Below the pieces are notes generated by a model. The model had not been told where the DNA came from. It was given only the letters and a program-made list of their open reading frames with translations, and did no database searches. A program made the position numbers and the translations under genes. A stretch of 64,000 nucleotides of DNA from Nitrososphaerota archaeon (GTDB taxonomy: Archaea > Thermoproteota > Nitrososphaeria > Nitrososphaerales > Gagatemarchaeaceae): the NCBI GenBank assembly GCA_027887045.1, contig JAPCJH010000001.1, positions 496,001-560,000 on the forward strand, read 5' to 3'. Shown in pieces: positions 8,194 to 19,207 of this stretch; the first letter of the stretch is position 1, and the number at the start of each line of letters is the position of its first letter.

Positions 8194-8351
8194 TTTAATA
8201 AATAGACGGCCGTCAGAGCCCGCCCACATCAGACCACACCAACACTGATGAAGTCCGGAGTAATCTCTGGCTAGCCCGCACGTGTGTCTCCTTCCCAGGG
8301 AGGCCTCGACTTTCATGCTGCAGAGATTGTCGCGCTGGTCGAGAGTCTGCA
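8194..8351 (+). ncRNA. Candidate structured non-coding RNA with its own TATA element
   Basis: The 245 bases between the zincin gene and the convergent dinB gene hold no convincing reading frame. TTTAATAAATA (8194-8204) is a strong TATA-like element. About 25 bases downstream begins a run of dyads: CATCAG/CTGATG (8227-8232 and 8245-8250), AG-CCGGAG/CTCTGG-CT around a UAAU loop (8252-8272), CCT..AGG around 8290-8303, and TGCAGA/TCTGCA (8319-8324 and 8346-8351). This arrangement suggests a short folded transcript on the plus strand. It does not fit tRNA, SRP RNA or RNase P RNA as far as I can judge. The 3' end is not defined. Confidence 0.35.
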
Positions 8352-8390
8352 ACGCTCAATGAGTCGTGATGGTCATATTAGCACCACCCC

Positions 8391-9476
8391 TCAGGCCCAC
8401 TTATCTAGCGAGGAGGGTTGGGTCTCCTCTCGACGGAGTTTTGATGCCCGAACTCCGACCAGCCGCACCGCCCTTGTGTGGTGCTCGAAACCCCTCAGCA
8501 GAGAATGGACTGTCTCTATGACCAATTTGAGGTCGTCGGAATAATCAGTGAAAGATTTCTCGGTCGTGTGTGTCTCGAAACCGACGAACCTTATCTTGAC
8601 GCCGATTGTCCTGTATTGAAGGCTACCTTGTTTCAACCGCTTCACCAGCTCTCGGGCAAGGCTCTCGGCTGCTTGGATAACGTCAGGGAAGTTCTCGACG
8701 TCCTTCTTGAAGGTCCTCTCAGAATTCATGGATTTTGGAACTTCCCTGCCCCGGACCTCAATCATCTCTTCGCCGTGAACCACGCCCCAGAGCCAGACCC
8801 CGTTTTTCCCGAACCACTTCACGAACTCCTTCCCAGGAACCACTTGCATCTGTGAGATCTTGGTTATGTTTCGATGATCTAGAAACTCTCTCGTCTTCTT
8901 ACCGACCCCAGGGATGACTGAAACGGGCAGAGGCGCTAGGAATTCTTCAGTTTTGCCCCATGGAACCAAGGTTAAACCGTCTGGCTTGTGAAGGTCCGAA
9001 GCAATCTTGGCGGCGGATTTGTTTTCGGCGATACCGATTGAACTGGTTAGTCCCTCAGTCTGTACAAGTTCCTCTTTGATGTTCCGAGCCAAAGCCTTCG
9101 CGTCTTCGCTGCTGTTGACTCGTGAGCTTACGTCGAGGAAAGCTTCGTCGATTCCGACCTGTTCGAAGCGGTCTGAGCGGCTACTCAACATGTCCATGAT
9201 GCGTTTTGATACTGTAGTATACTTGGACATGTTCGGACGCAGGTACACTCCTTCTGGGCAAAGTTTGAACGCTCTCGAGATTGGCATCCCAGACCTGAGT
9301 CCGGCTTTTCTCGCCTCGTACGAGCACGTCACTACTACACCCCTCCCAGCCCCTTCTTCGGGGTCGGCCCCAATGACTACGGGTTTTCCTTTCAGCGACG
9401 GATTGTCCCGTACTTCGATCGAAGCGTAGAAGGCATCTATGTCTACGTGGAAGACGGTTCGTAGGTTTTGAGGCAT
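8391..9476 (-). CDS. dinB: Y-family DNA polymerase IV (translesion)
   Basis: A 361-residue Y-family polymerase, the usual length of archaeal Dbh/Dpo4. The catalytic motif FHVDIDAFYASIE (residues 8-20) supplies the first metal-binding aspartates, and IDEAFLDVSS (about 104-113) the remaining Asp-Glu pair. The thumb HhH region reads LPVSVIPGVGKKTREFL, followed by a little-finger domain with the RTIGVKIRFVGFETH strand. Such enzymes copy past damaged bases with low fidelity. The very C-terminus lacks an obvious PCNA-binding peptide of the QxxLxxFF type. It starts at ATG and is followed 12 bases upstream by the DUF72 gene on the same strand. A second predicted damage-tolerance polymerase lies at 30379-32775. 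Confidence 0.95.
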   Translation of the reverse strand: MPQNLRTVFHVDIDAFYASIEVRDNPSLKGKPVVIGADPEEGAGRGVVVTCSYEARKAGLRSGMPISRAFKLCPEGVYLRPNMSKYTTVSKRIMDMLSSRSDRFEQVGIDEAFLDVSSRVNSSEDAKALARNIKEELVQTEGLTSSIGIAENKSAAKIASDLHKPDGLTLVPWGKTEEFLAPLPVSVIPGVGKKTREFLDHRNITKISQMQVVPGKEFVKWFGKNGVWLWGVVHGEEMIEVRGREVPKSMNSERTFKKDVENFPDVIQAAESLARELVKRLKQGSLQYRTIGVKIRFVGFETHTTEKSFTDYSDDLKLVIETVHSLLRGFEHHTRAVRLVGVRASKLRREETQPSSLDKWA

Positions 9477-15178: not shown

Positions 15179-16345
15179 TCACACATTCACGAATACAGAG
15201 ATGGTTGTAATCGAGGAATTCGTGCTTGACCCGGTCATCATGTACAGGGTATACACCCCGGCGCCGTCTTTCTGAATGAAATCGATCATCGGAAATGCGA
15301 CGTCTACCTGAGTCGCCGAGTATTTCCAGGTTGTGGCGTAGACCGTCACTGCTCCGGGGAAGTACTTGCAAGAAACGGTGCACGGGGGAAGAACACCCCC
15401 AACCGCGGTCCCCGAGTCATATTCGTGTCCCCCAGCATTAAGCTGGGCCACCGATTCTGGTGAAGGTGTTGGGTCGTAGAAGACCCCGATGTCCATCACC
15501 TGAGCATCCCTCAGAGGGGTTCCAGTAAACTGCACGACGTAATTCGGGTTCACCGAGAAATTCAGATCAATATAGTAAGTTTCGAAGTCTTCAACGAAGT
15601 AAACGTGCGTGGTGTCATAGGCAACCCCGATTGAAACGCGATTATGCATTCCAGTCAAGATGTTATCCCTGTGCCCGTTGTTGCAGCAGATGGAGTCGTT
15701 ATACATCATCTGCGATTCCAATGTCGAGATCGTCCCCTCTACGTCCCGTACGCTGAAATAATGGGGGCCGCTCCAAGCCTCAAAGGCGATATTTTCGGCC
15801 ATACTTCCTCTCCCTCCGAGCAGGGAGTATCGCATGTAGGGTTTGTATCCCTGAGTGTCGATATGGCTGAAGTAGCGGAAATAGAGCATCGAATCGGCGT
15901 GTTGTTGACCTGATTTGATCGGGCTCAATGTTACGGGGGACAAGCCGAATTTGGCTCTGTCTTGATTGATTAACGAGAGGGAGTAATTGGCCAGCGTGGC
16001 GTACGTCGGAGGAAAGGTGATGTTGGACCCGCTCCCGTTGATCGTTGGAGAGTACACGACGTAGGAAAGAGCGGTCTGATTGCTGGAACTTGTTGAGCTC
16101 GTCGATTGTGGCAGGTTAGTCGTAATTCGCCCGAGTAACGAATTGGTGTCATTGACGAGCCTTGCTGGTAGATTGGGTGCAAAGGTCGCTATCCCCGCCA
16201 AGACGATCAAGAGACTTATCACAATTGCAAGAACCGCCACCCAGTTGGTCCCCCTCTTGGGAACCTCTTCCACTGTTCTTGTCCTCACCACCCCTGACGA
16301 TGATTTCGGAAGGGGAAACGCTCTCAGTCGGGTCGACGCGCGCAA
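15179..16345 (-). CDS. Membrane-anchored CAP (SCP/PR1) domain protein
   Basis: A 388-residue protein. Residues 34-56 form a signal anchor (VAVLAIVISLLIVLAGIATF), followed by a Ser/Thr/Asn-rich spacer with many glycosylation sequons. The CAP domain spans about residues 118-245: LINQDRAKFGL, QQHADSMLYFRYFSHID, MAENIAFEAW, GHRDNIL and RVSIGVAYD. These supply the His and Glu residues of the CAP cavity. The remaining 140 residues are beta-rich and unassigned, with a CTVSCKYF cysteine pair. YkwD-like CAP proteins occur in bacteria and some archaea and act outside the cell; their biochemical role is poorly known. The TTG start is the longest option. Confidence 0.85.
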   Translation of the reverse strand: MRASTRLRAFPLPKSSSGVVRTRTVEEVPKRGTNWVAVLAIVISLLIVLAGIATFAPNLPARLVNDTNSLLGRITTNLPQSTSSTSSSNQTALSYVVYSPTINGSGSNITFPPTYATLANYSLSLINQDRAKFGLSPVTLSPIKSGQQHADSMLYFRYFSHIDTQGYKPYMRYSLLGGRGSMAENIAFEAWSGPHYFSVRDVEGTISTLESQMMYNDSICCNNGHRDNILTGMHNRVSIGVAYDTTHVYFVEDFETYYIDLNFSVNPNYVVQFTGTPLRDAQVMDIGVFYDPTPSPESVAQLNAGGHEYDSGTAVGGVLPPCTVSCKYFPGAVTVYATTWKYSATQVDVAFPMIDFIQKDGAGVYTLYMMTGSSTNSSITTISVFVNV

Positions 16346-16512
16346 TTAGCTCCTACCGCTTTGAAGACTTGGGGCGTATGACTTGAACCCTCTGTTTTGA
16401 ACAAACGATTGTGGCCGCTTCCCCGAACTGTTCAAGACAATTTGATGGGCAGTGCTGAGAAGAGGATTCATAATATAGAATCTTGAGCCCACTGAACGCA
16501 GGCTTCCTGGCG

Positions 16513-16917
16513 TTGAAGACCAAGTTCGTCTACGTAGGGATCCGGGTAACGGACATGGCCAAGTCCATCGATTTCTACACAAAAGTACTCGGGATGAAGA
16601 TGGTTGGCAAGAGCAGAATCGAGGCAACGAAAGGGGATGTCGTAACGCTCGCTTATGATGAACAAGAGTTCTCCCTTGAACTCAACCATTATGACAACGA
16701 CAGCCCGTTCAACACGAGATATCTGGTCGGGGAAGGTTTGGACCATCTCGCTTTCGGTGTCAAAGACCTAGACCAGGCGGTGGCGGATGCGAAACGCGCT
16801 GGGTATCCGGTGGTACAGCAGCTTAAGACCGCGAGCAGCAGGTGGCTCTATGTTCAAGATCCAGACGGGATTTGGATCGAGCTCTTCGATCGGGTTGATT
16901 TCTGGGGTAGTCAATAA
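16513..16917 (+). CDS. VOC/glyoxalase-family protein
   Basis: A vicinal-oxygen-chelate protein of 134 residues (MKTKFVYVGIRVTDMAKSID from the TTG at 16513). Two beta-alpha-beta-beta-beta units are visible: VGIRVTDMAKSIDFYTKVLGM with its partner FSLELNHY, and LDHLAFGVKDLDQAVADAK ending in QDPDGIWIELFDR. Likely metal ligands are the His in LDHLAFG and the two Glu residues in FSLELNH and WIELFD, the pattern of lactoylglutathione lyase-like enzymes. A frame start at 16483 exists, but TAATATA at 16471-16477 would place the transcript start downstream of it, so 16513 is preferred. It is followed closely by the Cys-rich winged-helix gene. Confidence 0.85.
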   Translation: MKTKFVYVGIRVTDMAKSIDFYTKVLGMKMVGKSRIEATKGDVVTLAYDEQEFSLELNHYDNDSPFNTRYLVGEGLDHLAFGVKDLDQAVADAKRAGYPVVQQLKTASSRWLYVQDPDGIWIELFDRVDFWGSQ

Positions 16918-16945
16918 ATATCCCTTCAGACAGATTCTGCCTGAT

Positions 16946-17179
16946 TTGAGACTGAACTGTTGCTGCGTTAGCACCTCCCGACAAGATGAATGTGTTCAGC
17001 TCACAGAAAGGGAAGCTTCGGTCTGCGAAAGGATTTGCGAGAGTGTCGCTCCAATTTCCTTCACTGAGATAAAGGATTTACTTGCCTTGCATCAAGAAGT
17101 CCTCTCGAGAGTGCTTCGTAGGTTGCAGGTCCACAAATTGGTAGAAAAAGTTGAAGGGAAGTACCGAAGAAGAGTGTAG
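16946..17179 (+). CDS. Cysteine-rich winged-helix protein, possible metal sensor
   Basis: A 77-residue protein starting at TTG 16946 (MRLNCCCVSTSRQDEC). Residues 34-77 form a minimal winged helix (ISFTEIKDLLALHQEVLSRV, then LVEKVEGKYRRRV). Six cysteines (5, 6, 7, 16, 27 and 31) lie in the N-terminal part, before the recognition helix. CAATAAATAT at 16912-16921 is placed 25-34 bases upstream, which supports a leaderless start here rather than an earlier one. The metallothionein-like peptide follows 45 bases downstream on the same strand. ArsR/SmtB sensors use clustered cysteines to detect Zn, Cd, Cu or As(III), so metal sensing is an inference from composition and context. Confidence 0.6.
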   Translation: MRLNCCCVSTSRQDECVQLTEREASVCERICESVAPISFTEIKDLLALHQEVLSRVLRRLQVHKLVEKVEGKYRRRV

Positions 17180-17224
17180 TCAATAATTACCCCAGCCCGC
17201 CTAGTTGTGGGGAGAGGTGATCGC

Positions 17225-17311
17225 ATGAGCTGTTCTTGCTGCGGACCTTGCTGTTGTGCTGGCGAGTGCTGTAGAAACTCCGAGAACTCAAACCGGGCCC
17301 CTAGCGCATAA
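17225..17311 (+). CDS. 28-residue metallothionein-like peptide
   Basis: The reading frame ATG 17225 to TAA 17309-17311 encodes 28 residues, eight of them cysteine, all in the first 16: MSCSCCGPCCCAGECC. The rest is polar (RNSENSNRAPSA). The clustered CxCC, CCC and CC motifs are those of metallothioneins, which bind Cu(I), Zn or Cd as thiolate clusters. Translation is supported by one of the few strong Shine-Dalgarno sequences in the window, GGAGAGGTGA at 17211-17220, four bases before the ATG. A possible stem CCCCA/TGGGG (17190-17194 and 17208-17212) partly covers it. It lies directly downstream of a Cys-rich winged-helix gene. It is far shorter than most known metallothioneins. Function is inferred, not shown. 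Confidence 0.6.
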   Translation: MSCSCCGPCCCAGECCRNSENSNRAPSA

Positions 17312-17329
17312 TCCAATGTCATGCGTGAC

Positions 17330-18709
17330 CTAGCGGGACCGTGGGCGTGCGAGGGATTGGTTCCGTGATGTCCGCTCCCGAAACAGATAGTAGACAAGCC
17401 CAGCCGCCAGAAACGAGATGAAATAGCTGAAATCGGCTCCACCGAACCAGCCAGAGAGCGCACCTACTACGGGCCCTGTGTAGGTTGGTAGAACCATGAA
17501 CGGGATGGATAATAATATCGCTACAAAGTAGATTCCAAGGGTAGTCCAATCGAACGACTTCGTTCTGCTCAGCGATTCCACGGTTGTGCGCTTCACGACG
17601 AAGAAATCGATCAGGACAATCGCGAGCCAAGGCATAATCCAATAGTCCAGTATCAGTAAGAAGCTTTCGTAAAACGTCTCAAAATTTGTGCCTCCCAAGA
17701 TTGACAGTGCGAGTCCAATAGATCCGCCCGCCACCACTGTTATCCAACGCTTGACCCTGACGTCAAGAACCAGGGCGGAAAGCGAATTCGTGTAGATGTT
17801 CAGGGCGTTGGCTGCCATCGCTCCCAGGACGATTGCGATCAGCGCCAGTGGCCCAAGGGTCCCAGCGAAATCGTTGAGCGCTCCGAAGAAATCCCGGGAA
17901 TTCAAGGTCAGGCTTCCAATAATAGCACCAATAGTTTCCACCGCGAAGGATGCCAAAGCTCCTCCGACAAGGGCATAGGTTGCGATCTTTCTCTTGGAAG
18001 TGGAGGCGGGGAGATACCTAGAGTAGTCCGAGGCGTAAGGGGACCAGCTCATTATGTACGAAAACGACACTGCCAAGACAACGCCCAAAGAGCTCAGGGC
18101 CGCCGAGCCAACTGAGCCTCCCGGAGGTACGAACGCGACAGCTTGGTTCAAGTGGGGGACCGTAAGGACAAAGATCCCAAGGAAGAGCAATCCCAGAACG
18201 ATTGACATGGCCTTTTCGAATAGCTGAATGAAGTCGTGGCCATAGACTGCTATCAGGACCTGAACGCCCACTAGGACGGTGGCACCCACATAGAAGTTGA
18301 AGTTCGGAACCATTGCCTGAATCGCCTCTGTGCCAAGGATCGTGTTGACGCTAAACCAGCCGATAGTGCTAATCCAGTTTAGTCCTCCTACGACATAGTT
18401 ACCCTTCCGTCCGAATGAGCTTCGTGAGGAGAACATCTGTGGGAAGCCCAGCTTCGGACCCATGGCCGCTGACAGCCCCACCATGATGCCTCCAAGTAGG
18501 TTCCCGACGATTAGCACAGGAACGGCTTGAAGAACGGTCAGATGAAAAACAAGGACGGACAACACTCCAATGACATAATCAGCCACGGTTAGGTTGGCTG
18601 CGAACCAGAGAGTAAAGACCCGCCCTGCGGAGCCGTGCCTCTCCTCATCTGGAATGTGCTCGATTCCATACTTCTCGAGAGAAACTGGCTTGTCAGCAGC
18701 GTCGCTCAC
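17330..18709 (-). CDS. NCS1-family nucleobase/allantoin-type permease
   Basis: A membrane protein of 459 residues from GTG 18709 (MSDAADKPVSLEKYGIEHIP) with about 12 membrane segments, typical of the NCS1 (purine-cytosine permease, FCY/FUR-like) family. Landmarks are the conserved entry IPDEERHG before helix 1, FSSRSSFGRKGNYVVGGLNW in the helix 2-3 region and the MSWSPYASDYSRYLP motif around helix 6, typical of cation-coupled NCS1 carriers. The frame is open further upstream, but that sequence (Arg-rich, no similarity) is unlikely to be translated. Substrates of relatives include cytosine, uracil, hydantoin and thiamine; none can be picked here. It converges with the metallothionein-like gene. 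Confidence 0.85.
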   Translation of the reverse strand: MSDAADKPVSLEKYGIEHIPDEERHGSAGRVFTLWFAANLTVADYVIGVLSVLVFHLTVLQAVPVLIVGNLLGGIMVGLSAAMGPKLGFPQMFSSRSSFGRKGNYVVGGLNWISTIGWFSVNTILGTEAIQAMVPNFNFYVGATVLVGVQVLIAVYGHDFIQLFEKAMSIVLGLLFLGIFVLTVPHLNQAVAFVPPGGSVGSAALSSLGVVLAVSFSYIMSWSPYASDYSRYLPASTSKRKIATYALVGGALASFAVETIGAIIGSLTLNSRDFFGALNDFAGTLGPLALIAIVLGAMAANALNIYTNSLSALVLDVRVKRWITVVAGGSIGLALSILGGTNFETFYESFLLILDYWIMPWLAIVLIDFFVVKRTTVESLSRTKSFDWTTLGIYFVAILLSIPFMVLPTYTGPVVGALSGWFGGADFSYFISFLAAGLVYYLFRERTSRNQSLARPRSR

Positions 18710-18802
18710 GATGTCTCGGTGACGCCGCCAGCGGAAGCTGTAAATGTTTCCCCATGGGTTTGTGTTTGACGTAATATAGCAGCTTCTCCTCCCACGCAAG
18801 GA

Positions 18803-19207
18803 ATGAAGACGCGGACGATTCGGCAGACTGTGAACTTCAAAGCTGACCCTCACGACGTCTACGAGTTGCTCATGGATTTCGAGCTACACTCCAAGTTTAC
18901 GGGTTCAAAAGCGACGATAAACAGAGAAATCGGCGGGAAGGTAGAAGCGTACGACGGATACTTAGAGGGATCAAATAAAGAGCTCATCCCCGACAAGAAA
19001 ATCGTTCAGAAATGGAGGGGAAGCGACTGGCCTGAGGATTGGTGCTCTACCGCCACTTTCCAATTCAAGAAGGCGCCGAAGGGCACCAAGATGATATTCG
19101 TCCAGACGGGTGTTCCCGACAATGAATATCAGTCGACAAGTGAGGGCTGGGTTGAATACTATTGGGAAAGGATGTCGCAGACCCTCTCGAAGAGAACCCG
19201 AAATTAG
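18803..19207 (+). CDS. START/SRPBCC-family protein (AHSA1-like)
   Basis: A 134-residue SRPBCC-fold protein similar to the AHSA1 (activator of Hsp90 ATPase-like) subgroup. The N-terminal strand and helix read IRQTVNFKADPHDVYELLMD, followed by KFTGSKATINREIGGKVEAYDGYLEG, the long meander IVQKWRGSDWPEDWCSTATF and the C-terminal helix EGWVEYYWERMSQTL. The fold has a deep ligand pocket; functions vary and cannot be predicted. GTAATATAG at 18770-18778 places an ATG leaderless start at 18803, divergent from the NCS1 permease. Confidence 0.85.
   Translation: MKTRTIRQTVNFKADPHDVYELLMDFELHSKFTGSKATINREIGGKVEAYDGYLEGSNKELIPDKKIVQKWRGSDWPEDWCSTATFQFKKAPKGTKMIFVQTGVPDNEYQSTSEGWVEYYWERMSQTLSKRTRN

Follow-up and report, generated by a model that had tools for sequence, protein, structure and literature searches.

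Introduction

The fungal Cu-metallothioneins of the Neurospora type and mycobacterial MymT are very short peptides in which cysteine is the main ligand. Among arsenic resistance genes, aqpS-arsC operons are examples of control by ArsR. Another such example is arsR2M of Halobacterium NRC-1 (PMC3600143). In the cyanobacterial systems SmtB-SmtA and AzuR-NmtA, a metallothionein is paired with an ArsR/SmtB repressor, and derepression by metal is the model (PMC8790569). Pairing a metal sensor with a metallothionein is an established arrangement; here, we describe an archaeal locus in which both parts come from families that are undescribed in the libraries and open-access papers we searched. Our search of the open-access literature, with subscription journals outside its coverage, returned nothing on "archaeal metallothionein" and no description of a regulator-peptide system of this type.

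The locus lies in a stretch of 64,000 nt (G000:C1:496001-560000), hereafter the window, from a 1.2 Mb genome that is 55.6% complete. The source organism belongs to the Gagatemarchaeaceae, or Thaumarchaeota Group I.1c, which are non-ammonia-oxidising archaea of acidic soils (PMC10640624). We compared the locus across 46 genomes of this family. The original prediction described a miniature metallothionein, a Cys-rich winged-helix protein and a preceding glyoxalase-family gene as a compact unit for metal sensing and buffering. Our analysis suggests that the locus is probably a two-gene metalloid-defence unit in which the regulator would release its DNA boxes on As(III) and the peptide would scavenge As(III), and that in relatives the unit is part of an arsenic regulon.

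Table 1. Features of the locus, with positions in the window, and examples of the peptide in relatives
Feature	Position	Strand	Basis
VOC/glyoxalase gene	16483-16917	+	PF00903, 2.2e-21
Box 1, GTCAATAAATA; predicted operator fused to a TATA-like promoter element, regulator gene	16910..16920	+	conservation
77-aa Cys-rich winged-helix regulator; TTG start, stop TAG at 17177-17179	16946..17179	+	ORF, AlphaFold2
Box 2, GTCAATAATTA; predicted operator/promoter of the mini-peptide	17179..17189	+	fixed spacing in relatives
Shine-Dalgarno sequence, GAGGTGATC	17214..17222	+	sequence
28-aa mini-metallothionein-like peptide, MSCSCCGPCCCAGECCRNSENSNRAPSA; ATG start	17225..17311	+	ORF, conservation
Permease-like ORF, next gene after the peptide	17330-18853	opposite to peptide	
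Peptides of relatives: MACCGCGCCEGCCNEEKKEE, MVCCCCGCCSQGCCSSEKQSGPQGERL			
Peptide of Thermoplasmata: MEEEKKKSCGCCECCDCPTECC			
Peptide of Caldarchaeum: LDCPCCGLCPCCDPPF			
Further peptides of relatives: MDHCCPDCCPYCCPP, VDYHCPSCCPFCCCPP			

Results

A Cys-rich mini-ORF is conserved behind the regulator gene

The original prediction of a 28-residue peptide with eight cysteines in its first 16 positions and a strong Shine-Dalgarno sequence was confirmed. The cysteines occupy positions 3, 5, 6, 9, 10, 11, 15 and 16, there is no aromatic residue or His, and the Shine-Dalgarno sequence just before the ATG is complementary over 9 nt to the consensus 3' end of archaeal 16S rRNA. The peptide fits the sequence criteria of a metallothionein (small, very Cys-rich, with CC, CxC and CxxC motifs and few or no aromatic residues), so we call it mini-metallothionein-like; binding of metal by the peptide is predicted. 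Pfam searches with five of the peptides returned no family at E ≤ 10, profile power being low at such length, and the gene is too small for ordinary gene finders.

We observed a Cys-rich mini-ORF directly 3' of the regulator gene in 16 of the 24 regulator copies in the family, the other eight having no peptide. Peptides of 15–22 aa with 6–8 cysteines also occur in Calditenuaceae, Caldarchaeum, HR02, JZ-1 and one Thermoplasmata MAG; over all relatives, the number of cysteines ranges from 6 to 12, and a few peptides contain F, Y or H. Looking for loss of the Cys pattern and the Shine-Dalgarno sequence in relatives that keep the regulator, we instead found an ORF of the expected kind (ATG, GTG or TTG start, at least six cysteines, at +36 to +56 from an exact downstream box) at 24 of 31 distinct regulator loci, the window included, as compared to 5 of 6200 dinucleotide shuffles. 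The CC-rich core, the Shine-Dalgarno sequence (GGTG to GGAGGTGA, in most relatives), the box and the spacing are kept. By contrast, the exact spacing of the cysteines and the ATG drift, with TTG or GTG starts in many relatives and no canonical start found at the expected place in a few (L007, L018 and L094).

Seven of the 31 loci have no such ORF. At L092, the second box precedes arsM in place of the peptide. At three Thermoplasmata loci, the second box leads into a protein of 85–93 aa (L101:4556-4837, L104:5066-5323 and L106:8215-8481) with CC and CSCFDK motifs rather than a mini-peptide, with a weak match to Fer4_19 in L106 only; at L105, a similar protein seemingly lies behind a box 5' of the regulator. 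At L103, the second box is followed by a 370-aa protein (8270-9382) with MtrA-like and pterin-binding (DUF4346) parts and with CxC and CxxC motifs. The Cys ORF of L094 is shorter and has no canonical start, and L023 looks decayed.

We also searched 398 genomes of the phylum with a degenerate DNA pattern (box, GGTG and TGYTGY) and discarded the result, which consisted mostly of chance matches; the clear peptide matches fell in genomes that also have a short regulator. At six loci (L005, L009, L010, L012, L018 and L021), an Alba-like chromatin protein is encoded 3' of the peptide, by a gene with a TATA-like element of its own, TTTATAG.

The same box precedes the regulator and peptide genes

Box 1 is an 11-mer that lies 36 nt 5' of the TTG of the window's regulator and overlaps the stop codon of the VOC gene, whose last codons (agt caa taa) make up part of it. 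Over all loci, the distance from box 1 to the regulator start is 30–49 nt. Of the 41 regulator loci compared, 34 have an exact box 1, including all 24 family copies and, outside the family, loci of Caldarchaeum, HR02, JZ-1 and one Thermoplasmata member.

A second copy, box 2, with the sequence GTCAATAA, is found where the regulator gene ends, in the window 46 nt before the ATG of the peptide. Twenty-five loci combine an exact box 2 with a Cys peptide, whose start lies at +39 to +53 from the box, mostly at 45–46. Usually, box 2 shares bases with the regulator stop codon (...SQ* or ...GQ*, from gtcaaTAA); at L008, L013, L018, L102, L107, L108 and L109 it lies 15–67 nt inside that gene, with the distance to the peptide kept. 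Among the family copies, 15 have both the peptide and an exact box 2, two have one without the other, and seven have neither (hypergeometric p ~2e-4). The spacing held even inside the regulator gene, together with this co-occurrence, indicates that box 2 belongs to the peptide.

Read against the usual geometry of archaeal promoters, the AATAAATA part of the box can act as a TATA element. Transcription of the regulator gene and of arsM (34–37 nt from the box) would then begin at the start codon or close to it, giving leaderless mRNAs, and that of the peptide gene a few bases before its Shine-Dalgarno sequence. With a promoter-like box of its own in front, the peptide gene is probably transcribed apart from the regulator gene, and not with it as an operon. 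The box lacks palindromic symmetry and does not readily suggest a dimeric repressor; activation by the regulator is a less likely alternative to repression.

The predicted regulator is a small winged-helix protein outside the families of Pfam and NCBIfam

The regulator is, as originally described, a 77-residue winged-helix protein with six cysteines encoded upstream of the peptide. The cysteines are at positions 5, 6, 7, 16, 27 and 31. The AlphaFold2 model, of a monomer only, has a mean pLDDT of 80.6 and a winged-helix fold (helices 21–32, 39–46 and 50–62; strands 66–69 and 72–75); it consists of a bare winged helix and a disordered Cys-rich N-terminus, with no helix after the wing. Homologues with 46–58% identity are present in 23 of the 46 family genomes, in 24 copies. 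More distant members occur in other Nitrososphaerales, in Candidatus Caldarchaeum, Calditenuaceae, HR02 and JZ-1 (Caldarchaeia-like), and in Thermoplasmata. Seven residues (F39, H49, Q50, E51, R55, R59 and Y73) are invariant in 39 regulator sequences from three phyla, H49, Q50, E51, R55 and R59 being those in the predicted recognition helix. Cys 27, in the first helix, hardly varies. Cys 31 and an N-terminal CC are frequent among the regulators of Nitrososphaerales; the Caldarchaeia-like regulators instead have cysteines in the wing and the C-terminus.

We found no family above cut-off for the regulator in Pfam or NCBIfam. The best Pfam match was MarR_2 (20.3 bits, cut-off 27), the ArsR/SmtB model NF033788 scored 12.6 bits against a cut-off of 55, and PF01022 gave no match. 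A sequence-profile search of the PDB returned no match, and a Foldseek search of the PDB with the model returned none at E ≤ 0.001, the best being generic winged helices (MotA, Zur, TtgV and MexR). IMG/VR viral contigs contained no relative. We therefore did not file the regulator as an ArsR: its score lies below the ArsR/SmtB cut-off, no other family is matched above its cut-off, and the dimerisation helix after the wing is absent from the monomer model. Among the phylum-wide matches that we inspected, the short regulators (L144-L148 and L155) have box 2 and a peptide. Winged-helix matches of 180–250 aa were rejected as members, those inspected having no Cys peptide behind a box. Regulators that have no peptide often carry a Cys tail of their own (RSLCLCCCC in L022:1477-1719, QGKCDC in L004 and L017, SLCTC in L024), as if the role of the peptide had moved into the regulator.

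The upstream glyoxalase gene is a loose neighbor

The glyoxalase gene that was expected to precede the pair is present, with a PF00903 match, but we excluded it from the unit. The VOC gene scores 16.9 bits against the C-As lyase ArsI (NF041414; cut-off 116), and a glyoxalase is close upstream of the regulator in only 3 of the 24 family loci: in the window, in G002, where a VOC relative is immediately 5' of the regulator, and ~1 kb 5' of one copy in G015. A secreted-looking CAP/SCP-like protein adjoins the unit in the window (15179-16345, minus strand).

The box precedes arsenic genes in relatives

Across the 46 family genomes we found 39 sites with the exact 11-mer, as compared to 4 for the reversed control. 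Twenty-four of these sites lie before the regulator, seven before arsM, three before aquaporins followed by arsC, and five elsewhere. The family has eight arsM genes with at least 70% identity and a standalone start; in seven, an exact box lies at 34–37 nt, and in the eighth (G007) the equally distant box has one mismatch. An arsM of 43% identity in G029 also has a one-mismatch box, at 34 nt. At two loci outside the matches from the family genomes, arsM is preceded by box 2 itself (L092) or by a box (L096). The identity of ArsM is supported by matches to NF008823 (1.5e-76; 257.5 bits, 5 under cut-off) and to arsenite methyltransferases in the PDB (1.2e-31), and by cysteines in GCGSP, NCVINL and CIAGA. 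The three boxed channels belong to the aquaporin family (MIP), and the ArsC encoded behind each is of the LMW type, with C-X5-R and a later Cys pair.

An arsM of at least 70% identity is present in 8 of the 23 genomes with the regulator as compared to 0 of the 23 without it (p = 0.004, kinship ignored). ACR3 mostly occurs in genomes that lack the regulator: 2 genomes have both it and the regulator, 21 the regulator only, 11 ACR3 only and 12 neither (p = 0.007, kinship ignored), such that the two occur together in 2 of the 34 genomes that have either. We observed no copper ATPase or other metal transporter directly behind the boxes that we inspected. One of the five sites elsewhere, in G037:C11 (L074:4113, minus strand), has GTCAATAAATA before a gene for a SelT/SelW/Rdx-like protein, with acr3, arsC and an ArsR-like gene as neighbors; no regulator copy was detected in G037.

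Since arsM and aquaporin followed by arsC are the only recurrent other box-bearing genes, the element is probably arsenic, and not Cu, Zn or Cd as the original prediction had implied. All arsenic genes behind boxes are in species other than that of the window. We found no arsM or ACR3 in the window's genome (55.6% complete), and in many relatives, including the complete genome G018, neither a close arsM nor a further exact box; hence, we infer arsenic by association from other species.

Discussion

We propose that the regulator works like an ArsR although it is not one, and that it probably belongs to a new archaeal family of metalloregulators, small proteins with a winged helix. At rest, the regulator would occupy GTCAATAAATA / GTCAATAAxTA, where the box overlaps the TATA elements of the regulator and peptide genes, with transcription blocked. 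As(III), and possibly also Sb(III), would be captured by C5–C7 and C16 together with C27 and C31 of the first helix. The regulator would then let go, giving two short mRNAs, one for the regulator that is probably leaderless and one for the peptide with its Shine-Dalgarno sequence, and the eight thiolates of the 28-aa peptide would scavenge As(III). In relatives, the regulator would also control arsM and aquaporin followed by arsC, making the peptide one module of an arsenic regulon. The conserved pair, which recurs with both boxes in three archaeal phyla, is consistent with the metal sensing and buffering unit that was first suggested, but the glyoxalase is not part of it and its two genes probably give two transcripts. 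Overall, the regulator-peptide pair looks like an overlooked arsenic defence system.

An alternative that is unlikely, yet deserves some weight, is that the peptide acts as a carrier, standing in for glutathione by presenting an As(III) thiolate to ArsM, ArsC or the channel, or that it buffers the regulator. A carrier would fit the box common to arsM and the aquaporin in relatives, the tiny size and stand-alone transcription of the peptide, and the Cys tails of several peptide-less regulators (GKCDC, CLCCCC and CTC); however, peptide-bearing species often have no ArsM, and sequestration is simpler. We consider it improbable that the unit senses and binds Cu(I), Cd, Zn or another soft metal, with arsenic genes having joined the regulon in some lineages only. 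All-Cys, His-free mini-peptides do resemble fungal Cu-metallothioneins of similar size, and many genomes, the complete G018 among them, have the regulator and peptide without a close arsM, ACR3 or another exact box. Against a soft metal, arsenic genes alone recur behind the box besides the unit itself, no copper ATPase or metal transporter follows the inspected boxes directly, and boxed arsM recurs in loci outside the family search (L092 and L096).

Two further explanations are very improbable. The short ORF with its single-amino-acid runs could be a cysteine-sensing leader peptide that attenuates a downstream gene, but the next gene in the window is on the opposite strand, leaving nothing for the peptide to lead into; moreover, downstream genes vary among relatives, the Alba-like next gene in several of them has its own TATA-like element, and Rfam gave no match of meaningful score on 16400-17500. 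Nor are the long TGC/TGT codon stretches likely to be a non-coding TGY trinucleotide run, since the peptides mix TGC and TGT (119:79), their interspersed G, P, S and A, stop, Shine-Dalgarno sequence and box-to-start spacing recur across phyla, and third codon positions differ ~2 times as often as first or second positions (296 vs 139 and 153, in pairs picked by amino acid identity and therefore biased).

A broader proposal is about as likely as not: that these loci form an undescribed arsenic regulon of three archaeal phyla, with a non-ArsR regulator family acting at a TATA-fused box and, as core effector, a mini-metallothionein of 15–30 aa, perhaps the first in archaea, that replaces ACR3 efflux in many members. 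If this is true, arsenic biology would gain a class of genes below the size limit of the usual gene callers, archaea would gain a metallothionein-like peptide with its own regulator, and an 11-base signature would allow the whole regulon to be read from uncultivated genomes. Experiments could then also address how abundant soil Thaumarchaeota that neither oxidise ammonia nor have ACR3 survive arsenic, and whether 15–28 residues are enough for a peptide to buffer a metalloid.

Like SmtB-SmtA and AzuR-NmtA, the locus would place a metallothionein gene under a small winged-helix metalloregulator, both predicted here. By contrast, its regulator scores under the ArsR/SmtB cut-off and is modelled without a helix behind the wing, its peptide matches nothing in Pfam and is roughly half as long, and its box is non-palindromic and TATA-like, with arsM, aquaporin and arsC as the linked genes. 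ArsR-controlled ars operons resemble the proposed regulon in placing arsM, arsC, aquaporin or ACR3 under a regulator that responds to arsenic, as we infer here; they differ in that the regulator described here is not an ArsR and its targets, a mini-peptide among them, are dispersed and tied together by a common box. As compared to the Neurospora-type Cu-metallothioneins and MymT, the archaeal peptides have no testable sequence homology, belong to another domain of life and are likely to bind another element.
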